Position numbers and translations under genes: made by a program. A DNA stretch of 64,000 nt from Terriglobales bacterium (lineage in GTDB: Bacteria; Acidobacteriota; Terriglobia; Terriglobales; Acidobacteriaceae): positions 35,273 to 99,272 of the forward strand of contig DASPRM010000004.1 in the NCBI GenBank assembly GCA_035624455.1, in the 5' to 3' direction. Of this stretch, positions 42,552 through 56,268 are shown in pieces. The first letter of the stretch is position 1. The number at the start of each line of letters is the position of its first letter. Under the pieces are notes generated by a model. The model made no database searches, was not told the origin of the DNA, and saw only the letters and a program-made list of their open reading frames with translations.

Positions 42552-44969
42552 TTATGTCCGAGCGCTCTTTGCCAGGCTCAACCGGCTAGCCAGAAGCAGG
42601 GGCGCCAGGTTGACTGCGGCAGTGAGCCATGCGGTCTTCCAAAACCCGAATACCGGAATGAGATAACTGCTCAACAACAAAGCGCCGGCACAACCGCCAA
42701 GCAAGTCGATCGCATAGAGTACGCCCACACCGGTTTCGGCTCGACGACCGCCAAGATAAATCTCTGTGGCGATGGGAAACTGATATCCCCCCGCTATTCC
42801 GCACCATACCGCTAAAGCTGGAAAAGCAAGCTGCGCACCCAAAAGAATGCCCGGTCCGCTAGAGCTTCGGGACAGCAGGCTCACTCCAAACAGCAGTACT
42901 GGCGCTGATAGGGCTAGCAGAAGTTGAGCGATTGCGGCAGTTGTCATGTTTGGCCCGCTATCGGAAGCACGAGTGCGAGCGATCCCCAGCCAACTCCCAA
43001 ACGCGATGCCCGCCATGAACATACCGATCAGGATCGCAAGTTGATGGTAGACATAGCCGAAAAGAGACTGGAACGACAGCAGGAGAAAAATCTGTAAAGC
43101 CATCAGCGTGAACCCCGTCGCCGCCACACAGTAGGCCGCCGCTGCCCGCGCGCGTCGCTCCCGTGCGGGCAGATACCCGAGTACAGCGGCTACGAGCAGC
43201 AGTGCGACAAGCACTCCGTCGATAATCGGCCTGAAGGCAATGTGCGCTGCAGCCTGGAATAGACGGGAATAGGCCAATTTGAACTGAGCACTCCACAACA
43301 CCACGTCAAAGTAGTAGGCAATCGGCTCGAAGTCGCGATTGACTGGCGTCGCAGGCAGCGGTTGTAGCAGCTCACGAACTTGAGCCATGCGATCCGGCAT
43401 CATGCGAAATGGGATGAAATATTCCCGCACGTATTGCGTCTGCAGATGCCGGCTCTGCAGCCGGGAAATCAATACTTGCGGATCATCGGTCAAAACATTC
43501 GGTTGCACAGCCGCGAAGAAGTGTGCTGTTTCGCCGGGGATGATGACGACCTGAGGAAAAACCTGTCGCAGCGTATGGTGAATGCAGCGCAGAAATTCTG
43601 CCAATTCTGGGCTGATGTAGTCCTCCGACGAGCGCAGGTCTAACGCCAGCAGCCCTCCAGCAGCGAGATGATGACGAGCCGAATGAAAGAACTCGGCCGT
43701 GTAGAAACGGTTGAGCTGCGCGGTTTGGGGGTCGGGCAGATTCAGAATGATTACATCAAATGAATCAGCCGCCATCTGGAGATAGTGCCGCCCGTCCGCG
43801 TAATGGATGTGGACGCGAGGGTCAGAAAGAGCGGGCGCCGAATACGTCGGGAAAAATTCGCGGAATAGATGAATCAGTGTGGGGTCGAGCTCAACATAGT
43901 CGAGCTGCTCCAGGGTGGGATGCTTCAGCGCTTCGGGAATACTACCATTGACACCGCCGCCCATGAGCAAGACTCGCTTCGGCGCAGGATGCTCAAGCAG
44001 GGCGTAGTGGACGGCCTCTTCGGCAGCATTTGGATCAGGCGTGCTGGCCAGGATCACACCGTTGTCGTAAATACTGCGGATATTACCGGTCTCGACGACC
44101 GTGAGATTGCCGTAGATCGAGTCGCGAATTCCCAAGACGCTGAATCCTCGCCACAGGCGTTGTTGTGCAGACCTGTCGAAGGATGGCGCGATATATAAAA
44201 GAAGCGGAATCGCAAAGCAGGCGGCTGCCACAACCCAACCCGCCACCTGTTTGGGCTTCATCCGCAATAATAAGGTCGCGGCCATGCATAGGTTCAGCAG
44301 GGCGACGAGAATGGCAATCTGAAAAGAGCTCAGGAAACGCAGCAAAACGATGCTGGCCAGGACTCCGCCCAAACCGGAGCCGATGGCCTCAAGCAAGTAG
44401 GCCGAACTGCTCGCGAGGCGGCCGGAAACCGCGCACTCCTGTTGGTACATGCGCGCCGCCACGACGAACAGGCATCCTGAGAGAACACAAAACGTACCCA
44501 GGCACACCAGGGACGTGAGCAGCATCGGCAGCGGACCCACCAGTTCTCCCGGCACTGTCTGAAAGAAAGCCCTGGAGGTGCGTACGATCCAAATCGTTGG
44601 CAGCAGGCTAATGCCCAGCAGGCATTCGATCGCCGCCACCGCCGTCCGAGCATTGTTTTGGCCGATTCCCATCCGGCCGGCCAGGCTGCTTCCGGCGGCA
44701 GTCCATAAAAGCCACGTCGCCAGCATAATTCCCAGAGAAATCTCATTGCCGTTGAACACGACGATAAGTTCCCGCATGAGAAGAATCTGGCCGATGACCG
44801 CGCTGAATCCAACCAAACCCAGAGCAGCTTTTACTGCAATCGTTAGCTGTCGCGCACAGGGCAGTGTGACGGGTTGCACAGGTGGGACCACCGGAACGAA
44901 ATTAGAATCTAGCTGCTGAACAAAAATCAAAAGGCGGTGCGAATATGCCGCCGGCCACCAACCCAACAA
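42552..44969 (-). CDS. Membrane-embedded spermidine-synthase-like protein (fused MFS/SpeE)
   Basis: About 790-805 residues. Six or more helices, then a soluble aminopropyltransferase-like domain with RVLLMGGGVNGSIPEAL, LDYVELDP, VHIHYADGRHYL and FDVIILNLPDPQTAQLNRFYT, then a second helical bundle. Such fusions are widespread but their product is unproven; the NLPDP in place of the usual D-S-(T/S)-D-P suggests an altered amine site. The start is uncertain: the longest frame (TTG 44969) overlaps the divergent DUF362 start by 25 nt, and later GTG/TTG codons lack ribosome sites. It converges on AmrBA with four bases between. Confidence 0.82.
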   Translation of the reverse strand: MLGWWPAAYSHRLLIFVQQLDSNFVPVVPPVQPVTLPCARQLTIAVKAALGLVGFSAVIGQILLMRELIVVFNGNEISLGIMLATWLLWTAAGSSLAGRMGIGQNNARTAVAAIECLLGISLLPTIWIVRTSRAFFQTVPGELVGPLPMLLTSLVCLGTFCVLSGCLFVVAARMYQQECAVSGRLASSSAYLLEAIGSGLGGVLASIVLLRFLSSFQIAILVALLNLCMAATLLLRMKPKQVAGWVVAAACFAIPLLLYIAPSFDRSAQQRLWRGFSVLGIRDSIYGNLTVVETGNIRSIYDNGVILASTPDPNAAEEAVHYALLEHPAPKRVLLMGGGVNGSIPEALKHPTLEQLDYVELDPTLIHLFREFFPTYSAPALSDPRVHIHYADGRHYLQMAADSFDVIILNLPDPQTAQLNRFYTAEFFHSARHHLAAGGLLALDLRSSEDYISPELAEFLRCIHHTLRQVFPQVVIIPGETAHFFAAVQPNVLTDDPQVLISRLQSRHLQTQYVREYFIPFRMMPDRMAQVRELLQPLPATPVNRDFEPIAYYFDVVLWSAQFKLAYSRLFQAAAHIAFRPIIDGVLVALLLVAAVLGYLPARERRARAAAAYCVAATGFTLMALQIFLLLSFQSLFGYVYHQLAILIGMFMAGIAFGSWLGIARTRASDSGPNMTTAAIAQLLLALSAPVLLFGVSLLSRSSSGPGILLGAQLAFPALAVWCGIAGGYQFPIATEIYLGGRRAETGVGVLYAIDLLGGCAGALLLSSYLIPVFGFWKTAWLTAAVNLAPLLLASRLSLAKSART

Positions 44970-45934
44970 TCAGCCGTCGCGAGGCTTTAGTCCAACTGCT
45001 CCGGCTGGGTGGAATTGCCGCGGGAACTACCAGGCTCGGATTCTGGCTTAGCCAGCGCAATCAGCATCCTCAGCCAGAGCTGGCGACAAGTCGGAAACGT
45101 AGTCATGCTGTCGCCGCCAATCCAGTACTGCCCGAGATGGCAGTCATTCAGGGTGCAAATCCTGCGCAACTGGCGCGTGAAGCCATCGAGGCCTTAGGCG
45201 GCATGAGCCGCTTCATCTCGCGCGCCGACATTGTTCTGGTGAAGCCCAACATAGGCTGGGACCGCACTCCCGAACAGGCGGCCAATACCAACCCGCTAAT
45301 CGTTGCCGAGATAGTCCGCCAATGTTGGAACGCCGGAGCCAAGAATGTCATTGTCACCGACGTCAGCTGTAACGAGGCCAGACGGTGCTTCCAGCGTTCG
45401 GGCATTGCCGAAGCGGCGCGGCGCGAGGGGGCGGAGGTCATCCTGCCCGAACCCGCCAGATTCAGGGACGTGGATCTACAAGGCGCAGTGCTGCGCGAGT
45501 GGCCGGTCTTCGATCCCTTCCTCAACGTCGACAAAATCATCAACGTCCCGATCGCCAAACACCACAGCCTGACTGGTACCACCCTGGGAATGAAAAACTG
45601 GTACGGCATCCTGGGCGGCCCCCGCCATCAATTGCATCAAAAGATCCACGAAAGCCTGGTGGATCTCGCAGATTTCATGCGTCCGACACTAACGCTCATC
45701 GATTGCTACCGAGTTCTGATGCGAAACGGACCCACCGGAGGCAACCTGGAAGACGTCGTTTTCAAGAAGACGCTGGTGGCCAGCACTGATCCAGTCGCGG
45801 TCGATGCTTATGTAGCCAATGCCTATTGGGACCTGAAGGTTTCCGCTCTTCCCTATCTGCAGATGGCAGCCCAACGCGGCCTGGGAACATATGAGTTTGA
45901 GCACCTTCGCACAATCGCGAAACAGCTGTCGTGA
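44945..45934 (+). CDS. Tat-exported DUF362 protein (second copy)
   Basis: A 329-residue protein with twin-arginine signal NPTISRREALVQLLRLGG. Domain features: VLVKPNIGWDRTPEQAANTNP, DVSCNEARRCFQRSG, INVPIAKHHSLTGTTLGMKNWYGI and DPVAVDAYVANAYW. It is diverged from the copy at 38746 but has the same architecture. AAGGCGG precedes the ATG. Diverges from the spermidine-synthase-like gene. Confidence 0.83.
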   Translation: MPPATNPTISRREALVQLLRLGGIAAGTTRLGFWLSQRNQHPQPELATSRKRSHAVAANPVLPEMAVIQGANPAQLAREAIEALGGMSRFISRADIVLVKPNIGWDRTPEQAANTNPLIVAEIVRQCWNAGAKNVIVTDVSCNEARRCFQRSGIAEAARREGAEVILPEPARFRDVDLQGAVLREWPVFDPFLNVDKIINVPIAKHHSLTGTTLGMKNWYGILGGPRHQLHQKIHESLVDLADFMRPTLTLIDCYRVLMRNGPTGGNLEDVVFKKTLVASTDPVAVDAYVANAYWDLKVSALPYLQMAAQRGLGTYEFEHLRTIAKQLS

Positions 45935-46031: not shown

Positions 46032-48701
46032 ATGGCAATTCTCCTAAGCACGGGAATCCGCGACTTCAAACTTCGCGGTAATTTTGTTAACCAGCGCAAT
46101 CTCCTGGCCAGCAGAGATTTGCATTTTGGGCGCGGTCAAACCGGAACCGTGAAGGGTACCGGACAATCTCCGCCAGTAATCGAATATGAACTGGACGACG
46201 GAGCAACCAATTGCATTGCGGTCAGCGAAGCAGATATTCCGCTGCTCTGCTGCGATGACTTCGAAAAAGCTAAGGCACATCTAAAGCTGATTCTGGATGC
46301 GCGTCACGGAGACCTCAGGGCCGCTGGAGATCTAGCGCTCGCTGTCCAGGCTTCCGACGTTGCAGTTCGAGGGCAGCCGGTCGAAAGTGATTTCGTGGTT
46401 CCTTCCACGAGCTGTCAGGCGCACTCCGAACAAAAGATCAGTCAAAAGGGCTCCATTCTCCTGAAATTGAGCCAGCAGGGCTATCCGGTGCCAGATTTTG
46501 TCGTGCTGACATCGCTTGGCTATCTCGATCGGGCACAGCATCTCGAGGAACATGTCTCCAAGGCCACCCGGCAACTCGAGACTCTCACTATGCAGAGGCT
46601 CGGCGATTCCAGAAATCCCTTGGTGTTTGCCATGCGCTGCGCTACCCCCACCTATATTCCCGGACTCATGGATACCTACCTCAATGTCGGAGTGACAGAG
46701 GGTACGTTGCCAAGCCTGGAACAGATGTATGGCACGGTCGCAGCTCGCAGGATGTTCCTGAACAATTTGCGAAATCTCTGTCAAGCGCTACACCATGACG
46801 AGTACCTTGCCCTAATCAAGAAGTCGGGTTCAAACCTCTCGCCGGGTCAAGTGGCACGCCTGATCGACCAGCTCAGCTCGACGGTGAGATCCAGTGATCG
46901 AAATCTTGTGGATAGTCCAATCGCTCAAGCCATCTTCTTCGCGAAACTGGCCTATCAAGACTTCGAAGCGAATCAGGATCTCGTGCTAACCCTGTGTCGT
47001 GGAACAGAACACTACCCCAGTCTCATCCTCCAAAAAATGATCTGCACCGTGCGCCATGAAAGCGCTTATGCCGGTGTCATTTCCAGTCGCGACACCCACA
47101 CAGGAACGGGGATTGAACTGCAAACGGCTCGCAACATTTTTGGCGAAGAAATGATGACCGGCACTGCCGAGATCCAGGCTACGTCTTTCGAAGATCCGGA
47201 AGCGATCAGGAAAACATTTCCTGGCGTCTACCATTTCCTTCCCCACCTCGGGGATCTGGAAGGGGAGTTCGAATCGCCGGTCACGATCGAATTCGCAGTC
47301 GAGGCCACAGAACGGCATCAACTATTCGCTCTACTGCAGGTCAACCAGTGCGGTATGTCAGGACGGGCAGCCATCACTGCGGCGGTCGACATGCATAAGG
47401 CGGGCACGATTTCCCGGCAGCGAGTTTCCGAGCTCGTTCGTCCCTACCACCTCAAGCAACTCACAAGCGATACCATCGATCAGGATGACTTCAGCCTGCT
47501 CACTCCCTTCTGCTCGGGGATTGCGGTCCTGCCGAGGTCGGCGGTTTCGGCACGCATGTATTTCACCGGGGATGAAGCATTAAGGGCAAAGAGTCAGGGC
47601 GAGAAGGTATGCCTCTGCAAACAAACCTTTGTGCCGACCGACACCGTGGTGATGCGGGAGATGGATGCCATCGTCAGCCTGACCTCAGCCGCTGTCCATG
47701 TCGTCACCATATGCCAGAGCTTGGGTATTCCCGCGCTGTTGAGCCTGGAGAAGAGCGGGGTACAGCTGAACCCTGGCGGAGGTTTGTTCAATGCGGCGGG
47801 CCAGGAAATCAGGGAGGGGGATTGGATCACTGTTTCGTCGCGGCGAAGATGCCTCTATCAGGGACAAGCCAAGTACAAACCGGCGCGCCTGCTGCGATAC
47901 ATGAAAGGTGAGGCGGTCGAGATGGATGAGGGCGAAAAGAAATCCTTTGCCTCCATCGCTTACGCCTATCGCTACTACAAGCAATTAACTCGAGGGCTCG
48001 AGATTGACCAGATCTCGACATTGAGTGAAGTCGTACGGCTCGTAAATTTTGATCTGCGCGGCGAATTGGAGCAAGCCCAACCCCTGGTAAACGCCTGGTT
48101 TGACAAAAGCGAAACTCTTTACATGGAGGAAGTCCTCAAAAGCGACATAGGCGACCACCTGGGGCAAAGCAATGTCTTCGAGATGCTCACACTGGGGAGG
48201 AAAATAAGGTTCTTCAAACACGCACTAGCGAAATGCTTGCGCGAACATATTTCCGGCTATGAGGCAGGAGCGTTCATGTTGGGACGTTTTCTGTGCCTCT
48301 CTTACCCCGTTGCCTTCTGGCGATCCTTTACCCCCTCGGAAATCGGATTACTGGTAAACGAGTGGGTCCTGTTTGAGAAATACATGCAGGTTCTGCACAG
48401 CGTAGGCGAACGCAGGATTCTATTAGCACGAAAGCAGATCTTAAAAGGTGGCCTCGAGGAGCTTTCCCTTCACCCCCGCAACGTGCTGGCTCTCATCACG
48501 CTGAAGCTGAGCGGCGCGAAACTGGACGAGGTCAGGTCCGTACTCCCCGAATGGGCCGACCCGCAATGCCAAGGCGTTATTGAACTCCTGCAGCAGCCCT
48601 ACCGCGTGTTTTACGATTTCAAAGCACCCTGGTCGGTTAGCCAGCTCGAAAAGATATGCCGGGAGGAGAACCTCCCCTTACCGAGTCCCGACGACTGCTA
48701 G
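46032..48701 (+). CDS. Pyruvate-phosphate-dikinase-like protein lacking the PEP/pyruvate domain
   Basis: An 889-residue protein. Residues 1-130 are unrecognised. About 135-460 resemble the PPDK nucleotide-binding domain: GSILLKLSQQGYPVPDF, LVFAMRCATPTYIPGLMDTYLNVG, QKMICTVRHESAYAGVISSRDTHTGTG and LLQVNQCGMSGRAAITAAVDMHKAG (the ATP-contacting Arg of QTR is Asn here). About 480-612 match the swivelling phosphohistidine domain; His556 aligns with the PPDK catalytic His when GIP is anchored (HVVTICQSLGIP against HAAVVARGMGIP). The C-terminal 280 residues are a helical domain unrelated to the PEP barrel. So it may phosphorylate a different acceptor. GAGG precedes the ATG. Converges, with 24-nt overlap, on the permuted enolase gene. 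Confidence 0.8.
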   Translation: MAILLSTGIRDFKLRGNFVNQRNLLASRDLHFGRGQTGTVKGTGQSPPVIEYELDDGATNCIAVSEADIPLLCCDDFEKAKAHLKLILDARHGDLRAAGDLALAVQASDVAVRGQPVESDFVVPSTSCQAHSEQKISQKGSILLKLSQQGYPVPDFVVLTSLGYLDRAQHLEEHVSKATRQLETLTMQRLGDSRNPLVFAMRCATPTYIPGLMDTYLNVGVTEGTLPSLEQMYGTVAARRMFLNNLRNLCQALHHDEYLALIKKSGSNLSPGQVARLIDQLSSTVRSSDRNLVDSPIAQAIFFAKLAYQDFEANQDLVLTLCRGTEHYPSLILQKMICTVRHESAYAGVISSRDTHTGTGIELQTARNIFGEEMMTGTAEIQATSFEDPEAIRKTFPGVYHFLPHLGDLEGEFESPVTIEFAVEATERHQLFALLQVNQCGMSGRAAITAAVDMHKAGTISRQRVSELVRPYHLKQLTSDTIDQDDFSLLTPFCSGIAVLPRSAVSARMYFTGDEALRAKSQGEKVCLCKQTFVPTDTVVMREMDAIVSLTSAAVHVVTICQSLGIPALLSLEKSGVQLNPGGGLFNAAGQEIREGDWITVSSRRRCLYQGQAKYKPARLLRYMKGEAVEMDEGEKKSFASIAYAYRYYKQLTRGLEIDQISTLSEVVRLVNFDLRGELEQAQPLVNAWFDKSETLYMEEVLKSDIGDHLGQSNVFEMLTLGRKIRFFKHALAKCLREHISGYEAGAFMLGRFLCLSYPVAFWRSFTPSEIGLLVNEWVLFEKYMQVLHSVGERRILLARKQILKGGLEELSLHPRNVLALITLKLSGAKLDEVRSVLPEWADPQCQGVIELLQQPYRVFYDFKAPWSVSQLEKICREENLPLPSPDDC

Positions 48702-51218
48702 CTCCCTTGCCGGCTCCTGCATTCGCTCCTTAATGCCGTACAGAACGTCGCGGTCGATGGTTGTTTCCAGTTCGTGAAGGATGTCAGGCAGTTCCTTTCC
48801 ATCCCTTGCGGCCACCAGCCGTCCAAGGGCAAGCGACAGCGACAGCACCGCGTTCATGCCGAGGTTGGCCTTGCGCTGCATGATCTGGACTTTCTCTTCG
48901 TCAGAAGCGCCGAGTGCGATTTTCCCCCGCTTCATTGCCAGGTCCAGCTCCATCAGCAGGAGTTCGCGATCGATGTCGGCCAGCGTACCCAGCGCCGAGA
49001 TCTTCTGTCCCAGGAAGCGAGGAGCCAGGACCTCCGTGACATTGTGCACTGCGTTCAGACAGCCCTTGCCGCCATAGCGTTTTGACCGTACCCACAAGTC
49101 GGCAAGTTCGCGATTCTCGGTGGCGAGAGTTTCAGCCTTGACTCCCGATGCGAAGCGGTAAGTCTTTTCCTTCTCTTTGTAGACGAAATACTGCGAATAC
49201 TTTCTGGTAAGTGGCGATGCTTCGATAATGCTGTCAACCAGGTGGATGGCTTCGTCCGTCCCTGCGGACGTGCCGAGTGGGGTAGCGCCGGAGAATTTCA
49301 TTCCATTGTCCAGCATCACAACAACTCCCACGGTCGGAATGCCGGCATTGGTCGGTTCCTCGTGAGCGGATATATCCGCAATCACCAGATCGGGGTCGAG
49401 TCTCCGCGTAACCTTAGTTCCTTTCTTGGCCATCTCCATGAGGTCGACGATTCGCCCATATTTGACGAGCCTCTCGGTGTTAGCCCCACCTCCGCATTTC
49501 AAGCCAAGCGCTCCGACCGCGAAACTGATGTCCGCTTCCATCACCTCATTGGGGGATTTCGAGCGGTGTGAGACCACCAGCGCGAGCTTCATCTGTTTCG
49601 CTATGCGGGTAGCTAGCAAGGTTTCGCTCAATGTTCCGATCTGATTAGCTTTGATCAGCGCGGTATTAATCAGGCCCTGTTCGGCGCACCGCTGAATCGT
49701 AGAATCCTTGGTGGTAACCAGGTCGTCTCCAATGATCAGGATTTCCTGATCGAGCGCCTTCATCAGTTTCTTCCAGCCTTCGTAGTCGTCTTCCGCGAAG
49801 GGGTCTTCTAGCGAGACAATCGGATACTTCTTCACCCAGCTCACAAAAAGATCCACCATCTCGTCGGTGGTCATCACCCTAGGATCTTCGGCTCTCCAAA
49901 ACAGATACTGGCCAACCGAGTCCTTCTCCCCGGTCTTCTCGCGGTAAGCATTGCTGAGTTCGCTGGCGGCTGGATCCAGAGCAAGGCATACGTCCCGGTC
50001 AGGCACGAATCCACATTCTTCGATCGCCTGCACCGCAACCCTCAATGCCCGTTCTTCGGGCAGGAGGTCACCCTTTTCCTTGGCATAGGAGGCGACAATC
50101 CCACCCTCCAGGCCAATGCCGACGAAATTCAGTCCTTCGGTGTCCTGGATAATCTGGATGGCCCTGCTTTGTAGAAGATTCGTGACCCGCTGGGCTTCGA
50201 TATAGTCTTTGGCGGTGAGCGGTAGGAACATCAATTCCTGAAAACTGAGATTACCGCCCATCTCCTCGGTGTGACGTCCGCCCATAATCGAATTTCGAAA
50301 TTCCCAGGGGGCAAACACAATCCGGCCGTCAGGCAGTTCCAGTTCCTGCAAGCGGTGCAGGCGCAGCTTGCGTCGCAACTCAGAGGGCTTCACGGGACGT
50401 ACTTCCTGAGTCATGCGGGCCGGTTCAGCCACCCTAACTTCCGCTGCCTTTGCCGCCGCCTCTTCCTGCCGTTCACGGAATGCCTTGTACTTGCCGGCAT
50501 CGGACAGCAGGAAATCAAAAAGCGCAACCACGCCGATCGTGAAGCAGAGTCTGCCCAGGTAGACGGCTGCCGGAAACGCCATGCGGAGACCAATGATGAT
50601 CAAGAGAATTCCCGGGACAAAAAAGATTTGGCTGAGCACTTTGCTCGCCCTTGGCCCCGCAGCTGCCACCGCGAGATTTTGTGTCTTCACACTGGGGTGA
50701 AAGCTGCCCGCCTCCTTGTTGACTCCAAGAAATGCTCCCCAGGGGATCTTCACAAACATCTCCAGATACCAGCGCAGTCTCCCCAATACGCCCTGCTTGA
50801 GTTTTGCCTGCGCCTGTTCCTCAAGCTCTGGCCGCAGGTTATTCGTCCTGACCGCGGCCAGATAGTGCCCCATCTCGTGGATGGCAATATTCGTATGCCA
50901 GGCCGCATACCAGATGATGGAAGAGATCACTACCTCCACGCTGAGAAACATCTGCCGCATGACATCAAACCTCGACGCCACACTCGTCGAAATGCTAAGC
51001 AAGGACGTCAAGAATGCAGCGTGGAATGAGACCAGCTTATGGTTGGCGATGATCCAACCACGATCCAGCCCCGGAAGGTCGCTCGGCTTGGGGATTACCG
51101 TGCAGAAGCAGCGCCTAACCACTTGCGCAAAATCTGCGATTCCTTTCAGCAATCGGTTCCTATGAGTGCTGCCATGCGGGCCGCACGAATGGACGGCGAG
51201 ATCTCGGAAGTAATTCAT
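48678..51218 (-). CDS. M50-like membrane metallopeptidase fused to a circularly permuted enolase
   Basis: An 846-residue protein (ATG 51218, GGAG upstream). Residues about 65-240 are membrane-spanning with HEMGH at 114-118, AAAGPRAS near 187 and Asp240 in LLSDAGKY, resembling a site-2-protease zinc site. A charged linker follows. Residues about 305-600 read as the enolase barrel: IMGGRH (His316), FQELMFLP (Glu328), GLEGG (Glu371), LALDPAASE (Asp415), VSLEDPFAEDD (Glu471), IGDDL (Asp498), IKANQIGTL (Lys523), VVSHRS (551-553), GLKCGGGANTERLVKY (Lys574). Residues about 615-822 read as the enolase N-terminal domain: GIPTVGVVVMLDNG, PLGTSAGTDEA (Ser651), YGGKGCLNAVHNV, GMNAVLSLSLALG. The order is reversed relative to every enolase I know, and catalytic residues are retained. 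Confidence 0.85.
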   Translation of the reverse strand: MNYFRDLAVHSCGPHGSTHRNRLLKGIADFAQVVRRCFCTVIPKPSDLPGLDRGWIIANHKLVSFHAAFLTSLLSISTSVASRFDVMRQMFLSVEVVISSIIWYAAWHTNIAIHEMGHYLAAVRTNNLRPELEEQAQAKLKQGVLGRLRWYLEMFVKIPWGAFLGVNKEAGSFHPSVKTQNLAVAAAGPRASKVLSQIFFVPGILLIIIGLRMAFPAAVYLGRLCFTIGVVALFDFLLSDAGKYKAFRERQEEAAAKAAEVRVAEPARMTQEVRPVKPSELRRKLRLHRLQELELPDGRIVFAPWEFRNSIMGGRHTEEMGGNLSFQELMFLPLTAKDYIEAQRVTNLLQSRAIQIIQDTEGLNFVGIGLEGGIVASYAKEKGDLLPEERALRVAVQAIEECGFVPDRDVCLALDPAASELSNAYREKTGEKDSVGQYLFWRAEDPRVMTTDEMVDLFVSWVKKYPIVSLEDPFAEDDYEGWKKLMKALDQEILIIGDDLVTTKDSTIQRCAEQGLINTALIKANQIGTLSETLLATRIAKQMKLALVVSHRSKSPNEVMEADISFAVGALGLKCGGGANTERLVKYGRIVDLMEMAKKGTKVTRRLDPDLVIADISAHEEPTNAGIPTVGVVVMLDNGMKFSGATPLGTSAGTDEAIHLVDSIIEASPLTRKYSQYFVYKEKEKTYRFASGVKAETLATENRELADLWVRSKRYGGKGCLNAVHNVTEVLAPRFLGQKISALGTLADIDRELLLMELDLAMKRGKIALGASDEEKVQIMQRKANLGMNAVLSLSLALGRLVAARDGKELPDILHELETTIDRDVLYGIKERMQEPARELAVVGTR

Positions 51219-51523
51219 GATGTACTCCACTGGGAAGGCAGGCGTGAGGCAGGATTCCGCAAATATGCCGGCGCCACGATGCGCCCACGATCTGCAGACT
51301 CGCTGCTTTGAGTGAGGTGCACTCTTGACTCCAGCACGGAATCAGCGTGCGTTCTGTAGATTCTCCATTGGAGGTGGGCACGGGTCTGTGACCCTGATCA
51401 CGTGGAGAAGCCCAACAACTGCGGGTGTCTTTCTAAAGGCGAGGGATGTTAGCCCTCGCCCTTTAACCGATGGCGCGAGCTGTGGGGCTCGTGCGGATTC
51501 TACGTGTATTGCGCGAGAAATAA
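51219..51523. other. Intergenic region upstream of the permuted enolase gene
   Basis: About 305 bases with no credible gene; overlapping short frames (51039-51311, 51325-51666) have no protein-like pattern. It should hold the minus-strand promoter of the permuted enolase, which I could not pick out. Confidence 0.55.
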
Positions 51524-51839: not shown

Positions 51840-52335
51840 GCGGAGTTCACGCAAGCTGGTTGCCGGGCGTCGCCGCGCTCAAGCCCGCGTTGGTGCAGAG
51901 GTCGAGTGAGGACTTTCGGACGACTCCCGGCCCGAATTCTTCATACCACATTGGGTACGGAAATTCAGTGATGTGAAGTGTTATATGTATTTCCTGCCTT
52001 CATACGGCAATTACGCCTATGGTTGCCTCCGCTCCTCCATGCCAGGGGTGGGATTGCCTTGACGTCGACGCCGCCCAAAACTCGTCGCCATAGTTCTTTA
52101 CTTGGAAGCAACTCGTAGCGGTGCCATTCCCGTAGTGCGCTCCTTGGCAAGACTGCCTGCGGGGGTGCTTCGGATGTGGTCGGCTCAGGCACCCCTCGTG
52201 GTGTTCCCCGTCACAGACTGACTACTCCAGGAGCGAGACGCTATTAGCAGAAATTGGCGTTCCACACGTACTGGTGCATTCACCCGCCGTGGCCGATGAC
52301 TCGTTGTCGTGCCTCTACCGGGGAAGAAGGGACAG
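51840..52335. other. Intergenic region upstream of the hydrogenase operon
   Basis: About 500 bases without a convincing gene. It must contain the operon promoter. I looked for a sigma-54 site (GG-N10-GC), as in E. coli formate hydrogenlyase; the nearest matches (around 52030 and 52153) are off by one base in spacing. A 17-base sequence at 52202-52218 is shared exactly with 34753-34769. Confidence 0.5.
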
Positions 52336-54360
52336 ATGGCCCAGACGCTGACTACTTGCACGTTTTGCGGCGTTGGTTGCGGCCTCTATCTGGAGAGCAG
52401 TGACGGGAGGGTAGTGGGCGCATACCCAAGCCTTTCTCATCCCGCCAACTCGGGCCGGCTGTGTGTGCGCGGGTGGCACGTGCACGAAGTGTGCAGTTCG
52501 CCTGACCGGCTGCGGTCGCCGCTGTTGCGGAGGAACGGCACACTAGAGGAAGTGGGATGGGACGAAGCCCTCGGCTTTGTAGCTGACAAGCTGATGCGAA
52601 TCCGCGCGCGCGACGGACCGGACGCGCTGGCTTTCCTCAATTCTCCCCGATGCGCCAACGAAGAATCTTATCTTCTGCAAAAACTAGCTCGCGCCGCGAT
52701 CGGCACCAATAACGTGGACCACGGAAGCGGGGTTTACTGCCACAACTCCATCAACGTGTTACTGGAAACACTGGGGCTGCCAGCCACCACCAACTCCATT
52801 TCGGATCTGGCAAACAGCGAAGTGATCGTCGTTGACGGCGTCGACCTCGCGCGCCGTCTACCCGTGATTGCTGGCGCCGTACTCCGCGCCAAACTCTCTG
52901 GCGCCAAGCTGATTGTTATTGGTAGCCGGTACCATCGAATCGCCCGCTCGGCTGATTTGTTCCTGCAAGTGCTCCCCGGCACCGAGGCGATGCTCTACGG
53001 CGCACTCGCTAAGGCAATTGTCGACCGCGGCCTGATGAACCACTCTTTCATCCATAAACACTGTCGCGATTACGAGTCGTTCCTGGCACATATCCGCCTT
53101 TACGACGTGTTCGAGGCAGCCGAGAGCTGCGGCGTGTCGCCCGACTTGATTGAAGAGGCGGCGCAGGTTTACGCAGGCGCGCGCTGCGCGGCTGTGCTGT
53201 ACTCGACGGGGATCGAGTCGCGAACGCGCGACAGTATCCGCGCCATCGTCAACTTGGCTCTGTTGACCGGGAATCTCGGCAAGCGCGGCGCCGGCATCTT
53301 CGCGCTCACAGAACACAACAATCTGCAAGGCGTTTGCGACATGGGTGTCCTCCCTGATCGCTTGCCGGGATACCGACCGGTCGGCGATGCAAGGGCGCGA
53401 GCTGAGGTGGAAGCGCTCTGGAAGACGACAATCCCTTCCAGCCCTGGATTTGGAGCACGATCGATGCTGACAGATCGAGGCGATGGCAGCTTGAAGGCGC
53501 TGTGGCTCTGTCGCTGCGACCCATTCAGCACGGCATTTTTTGGGGATCCTGCCAATTCGCTTCGCCATTTTGAACTCATCGTTGTCCAGCATCTCTTCAT
53601 GACCGGAACCGCGGAATACGCCCACGTCGTTCTCCCCACGACATCGTTTGGAGAGGAGCGCGTATCGTTCACCAGCACGGAGCGAAGGATTCAGCTCGCG
53701 GAACGGGCCGTTGCGCCGCCCCCAGGACCGCTACCGGCTTGGGAACAACTGGTCCGAGTGGCTCGTCTGTTAGGTGCGGACTGGAGTTACCGTAGCTCCG
53801 CGGAGGTGATGGACGAAATCGGGGCTGTCGTGCCCTTCTACAGTGGGGTGAATTACCGTAACCTCGGCAGCCACTACGGACGGCAATGGCCATGCACTAA
53901 AGAACAGCCGCTAGGAACATCACTGCTGTTCGGGAATCACAATGGCAATCATGCGTTCCGATTCGCGGCGGTTGCCAAGCCGACGATCATTCCGCCGCCA
54001 CCGGAGTTCCCGCTCATCCTGGTTTTCGGTCAGTCGCTGTACTACTGGAACCAAAGCGTCCTTATTCAGCATAGTGAGACGCTTCGCCGTGAACACCGCA
54101 TTTTGCTGCTCGACTATCCGCAAGGGTTTGTCGAGATCAATCCCGCTGACGCCCAGGCCCTGGGTATCCACGACGGGCAAAAGGTCCGCCTCGTTTCTCC
54201 CGATGCCGCTGCCGTATCTACCGCACGAGTAACTGACGAGGTGCGGCGAGGCACGGTGTGCGTTCCGTACTTTGTTCGGGAAGTCGAGCGCCAGATTCTG
54301 GGAAGCGTAGCGGGTGGCGCAGCACTGGTCTGGATCCGTCTCGAGAAGGAGGCAGCGTGA
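52336..54360 (+). CDS. Formate-dehydrogenase-like molybdopterin oxidoreductase
   Basis: A 674-residue Mo/W-bis-MGD enzyme. The [4Fe-4S] site is C8-x2-C11-x3-C15 and C43 (CTFCGVGC, GRLCVRG). The metal ligand position has Cys135-His136 in VYCHNSI, the Cys version of the Sec-His of FdhF. However, the segment equivalent to VRGQNNVQG of FdhF reads LTEHNNLQGVCDMG, so the arginine that holds formate appears to be Thr325. Start at ATG 52336 (AAGG upstream). First gene of the hydrogenase operon; its stop overlaps the next start. It is a formate dehydrogenase by context, but the missing Arg leaves the substrate open. Confidence 0.82.
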   Translation: MAQTLTTCTFCGVGCGLYLESSDGRVVGAYPSLSHPANSGRLCVRGWHVHEVCSSPDRLRSPLLRRNGTLEEVGWDEALGFVADKLMRIRARDGPDALAFLNSPRCANEESYLLQKLARAAIGTNNVDHGSGVYCHNSINVLLETLGLPATTNSISDLANSEVIVVDGVDLARRLPVIAGAVLRAKLSGAKLIVIGSRYHRIARSADLFLQVLPGTEAMLYGALAKAIVDRGLMNHSFIHKHCRDYESFLAHIRLYDVFEAAESCGVSPDLIEEAAQVYAGARCAAVLYSTGIESRTRDSIRAIVNLALLTGNLGKRGAGIFALTEHNNLQGVCDMGVLPDRLPGYRPVGDARARAEVEALWKTTIPSSPGFGARSMLTDRGDGSLKALWLCRCDPFSTAFFGDPANSLRHFELIVVQHLFMTGTAEYAHVVLPTTSFGEERVSFTSTERRIQLAERAVAPPPGPLPAWEQLVRVARLLGADWSYRSSAEVMDEIGAVVPFYSGVNYRNLGSHYGRQWPCTKEQPLGTSLLFGNHNGNHAFRFAAVAKPTIIPPPPEFPLILVFGQSLYYWNQSVLIQHSETLRREHRILLLDYPQGFVEINPADAQALGIHDGQKVRLVSPDAAAVSTARVTDEVRRGTVCVPYFVREVERQILGSVAGGAALVWIRLEKEAA

Positions 54361-55439
54361 GGGCGCGGATTGTCGCACGCAACGACGTACTGAAGATCGT
54401 GGACCTGCTGAGCGCTTCCGGCTATGAGGTTCTGGCATTGTTCCGGGATCATGGCGTCGACACCTTTTTTGATGTAGTCACGCCGGCAAACAGATCGCAG
54501 ATCCAAATGCATGCGCCAAATCCTTGCAATCCGCCAAAGCGCTTTGTTCTTCCGCACCTCGAGCCGTTGCTCACCGTCCATCGCAGGAATGGACAGGTGC
54601 ACATCGAGCCTGTTTATGATGATCGAAAACGCGCGATCTTCGGCATGAGGTCATGCGATATCGCGGGCGTCTACCACCTGGACCGGTTCTATCTCGGACG
54701 GGACTATCGCGACATCTATTACGAAAAACGCCGCCAGAACCTGTTCCTGGTCAATTTTGTGTGCACGGATCCGGAAGCAGATATCGGGGCCAATTGCTTC
54801 TGTGTCTGTGCCGACACCGGCCCGGCGGCGCGCGCTCACTTCGATCTTCAGCTCATCGATCTGGGCGACGACTACATGGCCGTTGCCGGCAGCGCCGCCG
54901 GTGAAGCACTCTTCGCAGAGAGTATTTTTCGGCGAGGCACTGCTGAACATATTGCGCGCAGACGAGCTGTCCTGGAAGAAACACGGAAGAAGTTCAAGCA
55001 TGCAACCAGTTGGTTCTCCGCTGGCGTACGTTGTATTTCGCGCGGTGAGATACCGGAGAAAACGTGGGAGGAGATCGCCGACCGCTGCATAGAATGCGGT
55101 GGCTGTACTTATGTGTGCCCCACATGCACTTGCTTCACCGTCAGCGACCGGCAAAGCGGGCCGGGCGAAGCCGAGCGCGTACGAATCTGGGACTCATGCG
55201 CACTAAGCGGCTTCACCCGCATGGCCGGCGGCTTCAATCCGCGCCGCGCAGTGCACGACCGCCGAAACCGTCGCTTCTTTCGCAAACTAGCCCATTACTT
55301 CGTGCAACGTGAATTGTCGGTGGCCTGCGTGGGTTGCGGGCGCTGCGCCACCGTGTGCCACGGGGACATCGGCATGCCAAACGTGGTGGAAATGATTCGC
55401 CGTGCAAGCTCGGAGCAACATGCAGCAGTTTCTCACTGA
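54357..55439 (+). CDS. Dicluster [4Fe-4S] subunit (HydB/sulfhydrogenase-beta-like)
   Basis: A 360-residue electron-transfer subunit. The N-terminal part matches the HydB/AsrA type (GMRSCDIAGVYHLDRFY, NCFCVCADTGP). Two ferredoxin-like clusters follow: CIECGGCTYVCPTC (244-254 set) and CVGCGRCATVC (324-334 set). GTG start at 54357 with AGGAGG upstream overlaps the preceding TGA. Probably passes electrons between the FAD/NAD(P) subunit and the hydrogenase. Confidence 0.85.
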   Translation: MRARIVARNDVLKIVDLLSASGYEVLALFRDHGVDTFFDVVTPANRSQIQMHAPNPCNPPKRFVLPHLEPLLTVHRRNGQVHIEPVYDDRKRAIFGMRSCDIAGVYHLDRFYLGRDYRDIYYEKRRQNLFLVNFVCTDPEADIGANCFCVCADTGPAARAHFDLQLIDLGDDYMAVAGSAAGEALFAESIFRRGTAEHIARRRAVLEETRKKFKHATSWFSAGVRCISRGEIPEKTWEEIADRCIECGGCTYVCPTCTCFTVSDRQSGPGEAERVRIWDSCALSGFTRMAGGFNPRRAVHDRRNRRFFRKLAHYFVQRELSVACVGCGRCATVCHGDIGMPNVVEMIRRASSEQHAAVSH

Positions 55440-56268
55440 AAACGTTTACCTGCCCAAGGTGGCAGTGCTTGATCGTGTGGAAGACGATATTGCCGAGGTC
55501 AAGACCTTCTATTGGCATTTTCGTGAAACCGAAAACCAGGAGCGCTTCCGCCATTTCCGGCCGGGACAGTTTGCACAAGTGTCGCTCTTCGGTGTGGGCG
55601 AATTTCCCGCGTCCTTGCCTCCGAGTCCGACTGAGAACGACACCTTCTTTACCATTCGGCAGGTCGGCAGTTGTACGGGAGCCCTGCACCGGTTGCGTCC
55701 CGGTGATCAGTTTGGGGTCCGCGGGCCCTACGGTAATGGGTTTCCGATGGAACAATATCGCGGCAAGAACCTGGTCTTCGTTGCGGGCGGGATCGGGCTG
55801 ATTCCGCTGCGGTCGTGCATTGTTTACGCGCTAGCTCATCGCGCCGATTACGCCCGGATACAGATCTTTTACGGCTCGAAAACGCCCAAAGAATTGATGT
55901 ACGTCCCGAAGCTGCGCGAGTGGGAAGCCTGCGAGGGAGTCGAGTGCCACCTGGCTGTCGATCGTGGCCAGGACGGCTGGACGGGACATGTGGGCGTAGT
56001 GGGCAGCCTGTTCAAAAAGGCCGGGGTACAGGTCCCGACGGAGAACACGATTGCGTTCGTCTGCGGCCCTCCAATCATGTTTCGCTTCGTCATCAAGGAT
56101 TTGCTGGCCATGGGAATGCCTCAGACAAACATTGTTTCTACGCTCGAGCGTTATATGAAATGCGGTGTGGGCAAGTGCGGACACTGCTGTATCGGTGTCG
56201 CCTACGTCTGCATCGATGGCCCGGTCTTTACGTATCAGCAGATAAAGCGATTGGGCGAGGAGATCTGA
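55420..56268 (+). CDS. FAD/NAD(P)-binding subunit (HydG/sulfhydrogenase-gamma-like)
   Basis: A 282-residue ferredoxin-NADP reductase-fold protein. FAD-binding segment FRPGQFAQVSLFG and the GPYGNGFP loop, NAD(P) segment VFVAGGIGLIPLRS, CGPPIMFRFV, and a C-terminal [2Fe-2S] cysteine group MKCGVGKCGHCCIG ... VCIDGPVF. It resembles HydG/AsrB/PyrK. ATG 55420 has GGAG five bases before it and overlaps the previous gene by 20 nt. It provides an NAD(P)H entry or exit to a complex that in E. coli uses only formate. Confidence 0.87.
   Translation: MQQFLTENVYLPKVAVLDRVEDDIAEVKTFYWHFRETENQERFRHFRPGQFAQVSLFGVGEFPASLPPSPTENDTFFTIRQVGSCTGALHRLRPGDQFGVRGPYGNGFPMEQYRGKNLVFVAGGIGLIPLRSCIVYALAHRADYARIQIFYGSKTPKELMYVPKLREWEACEGVECHLAVDRGQDGWTGHVGVVGSLFKKAGVQVPTENTIAFVCGPPIMFRFVIKDLLAMGMPQTNIVSTLERYMKCGVGKCGHCCIGVAYVCIDGPVFTYQQIKRLGEEI

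Follow-up and report, generated by a model that had tools for sequence, protein, structure and literature searches.

A 64,000-nucleotide stretch from the genome of a Terriglobales bacterium (phylum Acidobacteriota; contig DASPRM010000004.1, positions 35,273 to 99,272), referred to here as the window, contains a minus-strand gene for an enolase whose two halves are exchanged in order and which begins with a membrane domain resembling the M50 (site-2) proteases. Few enzymes are as highly conserved across life as enolase, and to our knowledge the N-terminal domain (N-domain) stands before the barrel in every solved enolase. In the permuted protein the barrel comes first. The gene converges on a second gene, whose product resembles part of pyruvate phosphate dikinase (PPDK), and in distant relatives the two are found in one chain. 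We give about even credence to the view, which rests on sequence comparison, that the permuted enolase is a membrane-bound enzyme interconverting 2-phosphoglycerate and phosphoenolpyruvate (PEP) with this dedicated dikinase-half partner.

The frame of the permuted enolase is uninterrupted and comprises 846 codons from an ATG at 51218 to a stop codon at 48678-48680, or 850 if an alternative GTG at 51230 is used. Pfam arranges the protein as Peptidase_M50 (residues 111-205), Enolase_C (304-595) and Enolase_N (best stretch 681-761). Enolase_C (PF00113) scores 188.1 bits against a cut-off of 21.5, and Enolase_N (PF03952), placed after the barrel, scores 53.1 bits against a cut-off of 35. The same order is obtained with phmmer and the solved enolase 3tqp, in which residues 299-593 match enolase 140-407 strongly, and residues 612-666, 713-751 and 781-811 match enolase 4-58, 58-93 and 102-130, each of these pieces being weak alone. 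Because the Pfam order and the alignment with a solved enolase are both permuted, the halves are truly exchanged. In the AlphaFold model (predicted local distance difference test, pLDDT, 82.5; predicted template modelling score, pTM, 0.80) the C-terminal part forms three strands and then helices, which fits the secondary structure of an enolase N-domain. An earlier note on this DNA, made from the letters alone, had described a single frame with inverted halves behind a membrane domain with a HEMGH motif, and had set the absence of an Enolase_N match after the barrel in advance as a refuting result. The frame and the inversion are confirmed, the Enolase_N match is present, and the M50-like domain is borne out with a Pfam score below the cut-off. 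On the other refuting result named there, a C-terminal part that fails to pack like the N-domain of enolase, the strands and helices of the model bear indirectly.

The permuted enolase belongs to a large family. Relatives were gathered with three queries (the window copy, a 58%-identical copy from Planctomycetota and one long form), which at E ≤ 0.001 returned 1,071, 1,022 and 363 matches, respectively. The best 120 of each were taken, and the remainder may include ordinary enolases. Among the matches listed there are 227 short and 120 long proteins, and the best 120 homologues of the window copy, itself included, share 79-100% identity with it over 92-100% of the query. Together with 25 loci, some of which overlap with them, these 347 proteins make up a set of 372, from which, as from the alignments, 10 loci repeating another were left out. 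Hidden Markov models built from 20 ordinary enolases of carrier genomes place the barrel first and the N-domain after it in 371 of the 372 relatives, far more than chance could give. The domain order for which the earlier note had proposed a search is present in several phyla; the sole relative without it (L033) is a gene cut by a contig end. Record titles assign the carriers to Acidobacteriota, Elusimicrobiota, Myxococcota ("Deltaproteobacteria") and Planctomycetota.

A tree of the barrel, for which 17 database proteins were hand-picked from the 347, splits 43 permuted rows from 48 ordinary bacterial enolases by a fully supported branch of about 3 changes per column. The method used was a quick one, the root serves display only, and the long branch that parts permuted from ordinary enolases may be a false join. 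A single origin of the permutation would be the simplest reading. Ratios of nonsynonymous to synonymous substitution (dN/dS) in seven pairs of loci amount to 0.09-0.13 for the M50 part, 0.02-0.06 for the barrel (one pair saturated) and 0.04-0.11 for the N-domain, and by this measure all three parts are under purifying selection. The first ~50 residues, with a dN/dS of about 0.5-0.8 (one pair saturated), are not conserved, and the true start may therefore lie further in than the ATG at 51218.

The residues H316, E328, E371, D415, E471, D498, K523, H551, R552, S553 and K574 of the barrel align with canonical catalytic positions of enolase. We take their catalytic and metal-binding roles to be those of the aligned enolase residues. 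The catalytic residues named in the earlier note all lie where it had put them. All 12 catalytic or metal positions are kept across the family: of 372 rows, 371 have the enolase residue at 11 of these positions and 370 have it at H316, and the remaining rows have gaps there. An alignment of 26 permuted sequences (25 for the N-domain) with 20 ordinary enolases shows that the first shell is retained and that adjoining motifs are altered. The N-domain loop VPSGASTG becomes TPLGTSAG; three additional residues follow the loop-2 His in the motif GGRHTEEMGGN. Permuted and ordinary barrels are about 30-41% identical. The substrate is probably 2-phosphoglycerate/PEP or a close relative, as judged from the residues kept. 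In comparison with E. coli enolase (1e9i), the N-domain, the barrel and the catalytic and metal residues are common to both, whereas the permuted protein differs in its inverted halves, its inserts, its membrane domain and the dikinase with which it is paired or fused. Membership of the MR/MLE superfamily was considered and rejected, with PF13378 reaching 19.5 bits (cut-off 29.4) and the kept residues being those of enolase.

Peptidase_M50 (PF02163) scores 24.7 bits on the window copy and 25.5 bits with the membrane part alone, not reaching the cut-off of 27.2; of the 16 proteins aligned, 15 give a match at E ≤ 1. The zinc motif is nearly constant in the 372 rows: H114 is present in 367 (5 gaps), E115 in 367 (4 gaps, one Met) and H118 in 368 (4 gaps), and D235 and D240 are each present in 370 (2 gaps). 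The AlphaFold model predicts an HExxH-bearing helix (94-124), a beta hairpin (166-175) and two further helices (182-213 and 216-239). A sequence search of the PDB with the membrane part gave no significant match (best E 0.87), no fold match for it appears in the fold-search lists, which enolases filled, and a count of loop charges gave no decision on the membrane side of the soluble part. According to a description of SpoIVFB, that protease combines the HExxH motif with a re-entrant loop of antiparallel strands between transmembrane helices TM2 and TM3, and its ligands are H43, H47 and D137 (PMC11486902). The same source places an interdomain linker and then a cytosolic CBS domain behind the membrane region (PMC11486902). 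The permuted enolase shares with SpoIVFB and mjS2P the HExxH motif, a following Asp, a predicted beta hairpin between helices and a soluble domain after a linker. By contrast, its soluble domain is enolase (plus dikinase) and not CBS, and its M50 score lies below the cut-off.

The partner aligns with PPDK (1dik) in phmmer at 1.7e-20 over residues 136-618. In a Pfam scan at E ≤ 0.001 no family matches it, and the window copy scores below the cut-offs of both PPDK_N (17.3 against 27) and PEP-utilizers (16.8 against 23.1). K139, R202, E420 and Q436 are invariant in 16 of 16 sequences and align with Lys22, Arg92, Glu323 and Gln335 of the ATP site of PPDK. A model from 16 sequences has a pLDDT of 64.7, below 50 in the phosphohistidine part; with this low-confidence model, Foldseek matches PPDK at 3.6e-17 and rifampin phosphotransferase at 2.4e-07. 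The partner is thus like PPDK and PEP synthase (and rifampin phosphotransferase) in its ATP-grasp and phosphohistidine parts and differs from PPDK and PEP synthase in having a helical extension, in its Asn at the position of Arg337 and in that no PEP-binding barrel is found in it at E ≤ 10. The helical C-terminal region (residues 610-889) is without a Pfam match and contains the conserved motifs AGAFMLGRF and NEWxLFxKY. The earlier note, sound on the permutation, the membrane domain and the catalytic residues, had missed both this partner and the large family.

The partner is the convergent neighbour of the permuted enolase in 18 of 20 short-form loci (the window and L015-L033); of the two exceptions, one (L033) breaks off within the enolase gene and the other (L032) is without a partner. 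The two stop codons lie at most 150 bases apart in 14 of 16 measured loci. Among 298 genomes of the order, searched by scoring the top 2 or 3 candidates in each, the permuted enolase (>900 bits) is present in 14 and the partner in exactly those 14. The chance of identical sets is 2.7e-24, but the 14 genomes represent 9 genera and are not independent.

Beyond the order the two proteins can be joined. A draw across the phylum, again with the top 2 or 3 candidates of each genome scored, gives matches at E ≤ 1e-150 in 9 of 396 genomes. Five of these genomes do not belong to the order; one has a match at 76% identity and the other four at 49-51%. Three of the latter four lie in open frames of 2,051-2,184 codons, in which the M50-like part, the barrel, the N-domain, a helical region, the PPDK ATP-grasp and the phosphohistidine domain follow one another (Pfam was run on one of the three), and in G409 the same chain is split over two adjacent genes in one direction. 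A PEP-binding barrel was not found at E ≤ 0.1 in the 2,038-residue fusion or in the 1,179-residue split gene. Among the best 120 of 363 long-form relatives, in which a single chain likewise has the dikinase after the enolase, nearly all have precomputed Enolase_C, Enolase_N and at least one PPDK domain; their record names include Aminicenantes, Krumholzibacteria, Gemmatimonadales, Holophagae, Planctomycetota and Desulfonatronum. Simple patterns find HExGH in 117 of these 120, the Arg92-like site in 118, a GGKG-like motif in 115, the phosphohistidine motif in 108 and the E..Q.R motif in 73, where a miss may reflect truncation, a narrow pattern or a real change. Since the permuted enolase and the dikinase part are fused in one lineage and strictly co-occur in another, there is strong evidence that they act together. 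Twenty-one of the 120 long forms exceed 2,200 residues. In P0267, the one of these that was scanned, an HD domain (PF01966, residues 886-991) separates the permuted enolase from the dikinase part; a simple HD pattern occurs in 9 of the 21.

If the permuted enolase is the membrane-bound enzyme proposed above, its soluble part would lie in the cytosol, as is assumed from its chemistry, and the barrel and the relocated N-domain would together enclose an active site with the usual two metals of enolase. ATP would charge the phosphohistidine of the partner, which would then serve a substrate held at the enolase or close to it, in place of the PEP/pyruvate barrel of PPDK. More weakly, the M50 part may still bind zinc and cleave a membrane substrate, and the metabolic state of the enolase and dikinase may be coupled to proteolysis. 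The 12 constant catalytic residues speak for catalysis and the constant zinc motif speaks for a living protease, and both a catalytic enolase and a working protease may be true. A bolder form, which we consider clearly unlikely, is a membrane machine in which the active permuted enolase replaces the PEP barrel of the dikinase and the state of the reaction drives the site-2-type protease; here the phosphohistidine domain would swing between its own ATP site and the enolase site.

Several observations weigh against the enzymatic view. The usual order of enolase, N-domain and then barrel, is not that of this protein, and the NCBIfam eno equivalog (TIGR01060) gives 239.9 against a cut-off of 300; on both counts family tests do not class the protein as an enolase, although it likely works like one. 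In the model, the loop of the relocated N-domain (residues ~650-662) has low confidence. Second-shell motifs are changed from LDSRGNPT to PTNAGIPT, GDEGG to GLEGG, SHRSGETED to SHRSKSPNE and KTGSASR to KCGGGAN, and with several of them altered, the substrate or the oligomer may differ from that of ordinary enolase. In the partner, Asn438, nearly invariant as Asn, occupies the position of Arg337 of PPDK; a residue of the Arg337 type is retained in many of the long forms. The Planctomycetota locus L032, of which six neighbour genes were scanned, has no partner in its 12.9 kb, 7 kb of that downstream, and its subfamily (P0121-P0147) may work without one. Lastly, most carriers have an ordinary enolase as well. 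As the earlier note had suggested one might look for, an ordinary eno exists elsewhere in the source genome (G000:C160; the permuted enolase is on G000:C4), and a strong PEP-utilizers match in a 735-residue frame at C67 most likely marks an ordinary PPDK or PEP synthase. An ordinary eno is also present in 26 of 30 distinct genomes carrying the permuted enolase (the 30 being 26 from a first set and 4 new ones from a second, with genomes met twice merged by identical coordinates). Since ordinary eno and a PPDK-type match are already in the genome, the permuted enolase does not owe its presence to house-keeping PEP supply.

A full separate eno was not found in G064, G252, G317 and G321, the last of which has just 1.7 Mb. 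G064 (8 contigs, completeness figure 100%) has the permuted enolase (C2:723404-725815) and the partner. Neither a separate eno nor gpmI, which lies next to eno in the congener G159, was found there. A DNA search with the G159 region revealed no syntenic eno site in G064 and gave short repeat-like matches, the best of them in an unrelated region, and the fused gene. The idea that the permuted enolase is the sole enolase of G064 was rejected, as loss and an assembly gap are indistinguishable with gpmI missing too, and an assembly gap is as likely as loss.

The main rival to a membrane-bound enzyme, possible but on the unlikely side, is a metabolite-gated intramembrane protease. The enolase and dikinase parts, in the position that CBS domains have in SpoIVFB and mjS2P, would then sense 2-phosphoglycerate, PEP and adenylates in the cytosol, and the protease would open or close according to the ligands bound there. 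HExGH and the following Asp come close to the enolase residues in constancy, an ordinary eno in most carriers would free the permuted copy for other work, and the predicted order of helix, hairpin, helix and helix fits SpoIVFB as described in that account (PMC11486902). However, some catalytic residues should be lost in a pure sensor, and none of the 12 is replaced in any aligned row; the PPDK-like motifs are retained in most long forms, as far as simple patterns tell, and no gene for a protease substrate is conserved beside the module.

Altered second-shell motifs around a retained first shell, together with the additional residues (RHTEEMGGN) by the catalytic loop, would also suit an enolase-fold lyase that uses the same metal and base residues on another phosphorylated hydroxy acid, perhaps one that is membrane-bound or made by the dikinase, such as glycerate phosphorylated in situ. 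The permuted proteins form one clade at about 3 changes per column from 48 ordinary enolases, and a dikinase half without a PEP barrel would leave room for another phosphoryl acceptor. We find this explanation quite improbable, since all residues that in enolase contact 2-phosphoglycerate are present, which points to the same or a near-identical substrate. A chance fusion, an assembly error or a decaying gene, for which the unconserved first 50 residues might be adduced, is hardly conceivable and was rejected: 371 of 372 proteins, drawn from several phyla and many assemblies, share the architecture, and the M50 part, the barrel and the N-domain all show purifying selection.

Each domain by itself is known, and the combined system is not in the literature searched. 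In a non-exhaustive search of open-licence full texts, no description of a permuted enolase or of an enolase-M50 or enolase-dikinase fusion was found, in agreement with the earlier note, to which no protein of such form was known. Some long forms bear database names such as "enolase/phosphoenolpyruvate synthase/pyruvate phosphate dikinase", which mention neither the permutation nor the membrane part. If active, the protein would show that a core enzyme can be circularly permuted in nature and would carry out a membrane-bound PEP reaction apart from glycolysis, perhaps with a direct link to proteolysis regulated by the state of PEP or adenylates. The membrane machine, if true, would be the first glycolysis enzyme built into an intramembrane protease.

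Table 1. Coordinates, in the window, of the permuted enolase gene, its partner and their parts.
Feature	Position	Strand	Basis
Permuted enolase coding sequence, 846 residues: M50-like membrane domain, barrel, N-domain	48678..51218	-	frame, Pfam
M50/site-2-protease-like membrane domain, residues 51-262	50433..51068	-	Pfam, AlphaFold model
HEMGH motif (HExxH zinc motif), residues 114-118	50865..50879	-	alignment
Asp235, candidate third zinc ligand, helix 216-239	50514..50516	-	alignment and model; role presumed
Asp240, alternative candidate third zinc ligand	50499-50501	-	alignment and model; role presumed
Enolase C-terminal (TIM barrel) domain, residues 298-600	49419..50327	-	Pfam, alignment, fold searches
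Relocated enolase N-terminal domain, residues 611-830, inserts ~668-712 and ~758-778	48729..49388	-	Pfam, phmmer, alignment
TPLGTSAGTDE loop with Ser651, counterpart of the enolase VPSGASTG loop	49251..49283	-	alignment
Partner coding sequence, 889 residues: PPDK-like ATP-grasp (~136-500), phosphohistidine domain (~500-610), helical C-terminus	46032..48701	+	
Partner His556, aligned with the PPDK catalytic histidine	47697..47699	+	invariant 16/16
3'-3' overlap of the convergent permuted enolase and partner genes, 24 bases	48678..48701	.	

Apart from the partner, no gene of the flanks recurs in more than 2 of 25 loci compared, and a fixed pathway context for the module was rejected on these grounds. 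The comparison uses the longest frames and can overlook a gene that lies opposite a longer antisense frame, as it did with the partner in L149. In an Elusimicrobia locus a 463-residue frame lies between the permuted enolase and the partner (L029:9709-11100), and the permuted enolase of L032 (L032:3446-5890) has a sigma-54 activator gene next downstream. A gene for a malic enzyme-phosphotransacetylase stands beside the module in two distant loci (L031:4155-6455 and L143:1328-3640) and was not found in the remaining loci searched; as a neighbour it hints at the PEP-pyruvate-oxaloacetate node, which is suggestive only.

Elsewhere in the window, a spermidine-synthase-domain protein (42552-44969, minus strand) and a DUF362 protein (44945-45934, plus strand) are encoded by genes with overlapping 5' ends, and neither gene was found in the loci of the relatives. 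On the plus strand at 52309-56268, genes for a molybdopterin oxidoreductase, an Fe-S protein and an NAD-binding reductase stand in a row and are perhaps a formate dehydrogenase or hydrogenase cluster.

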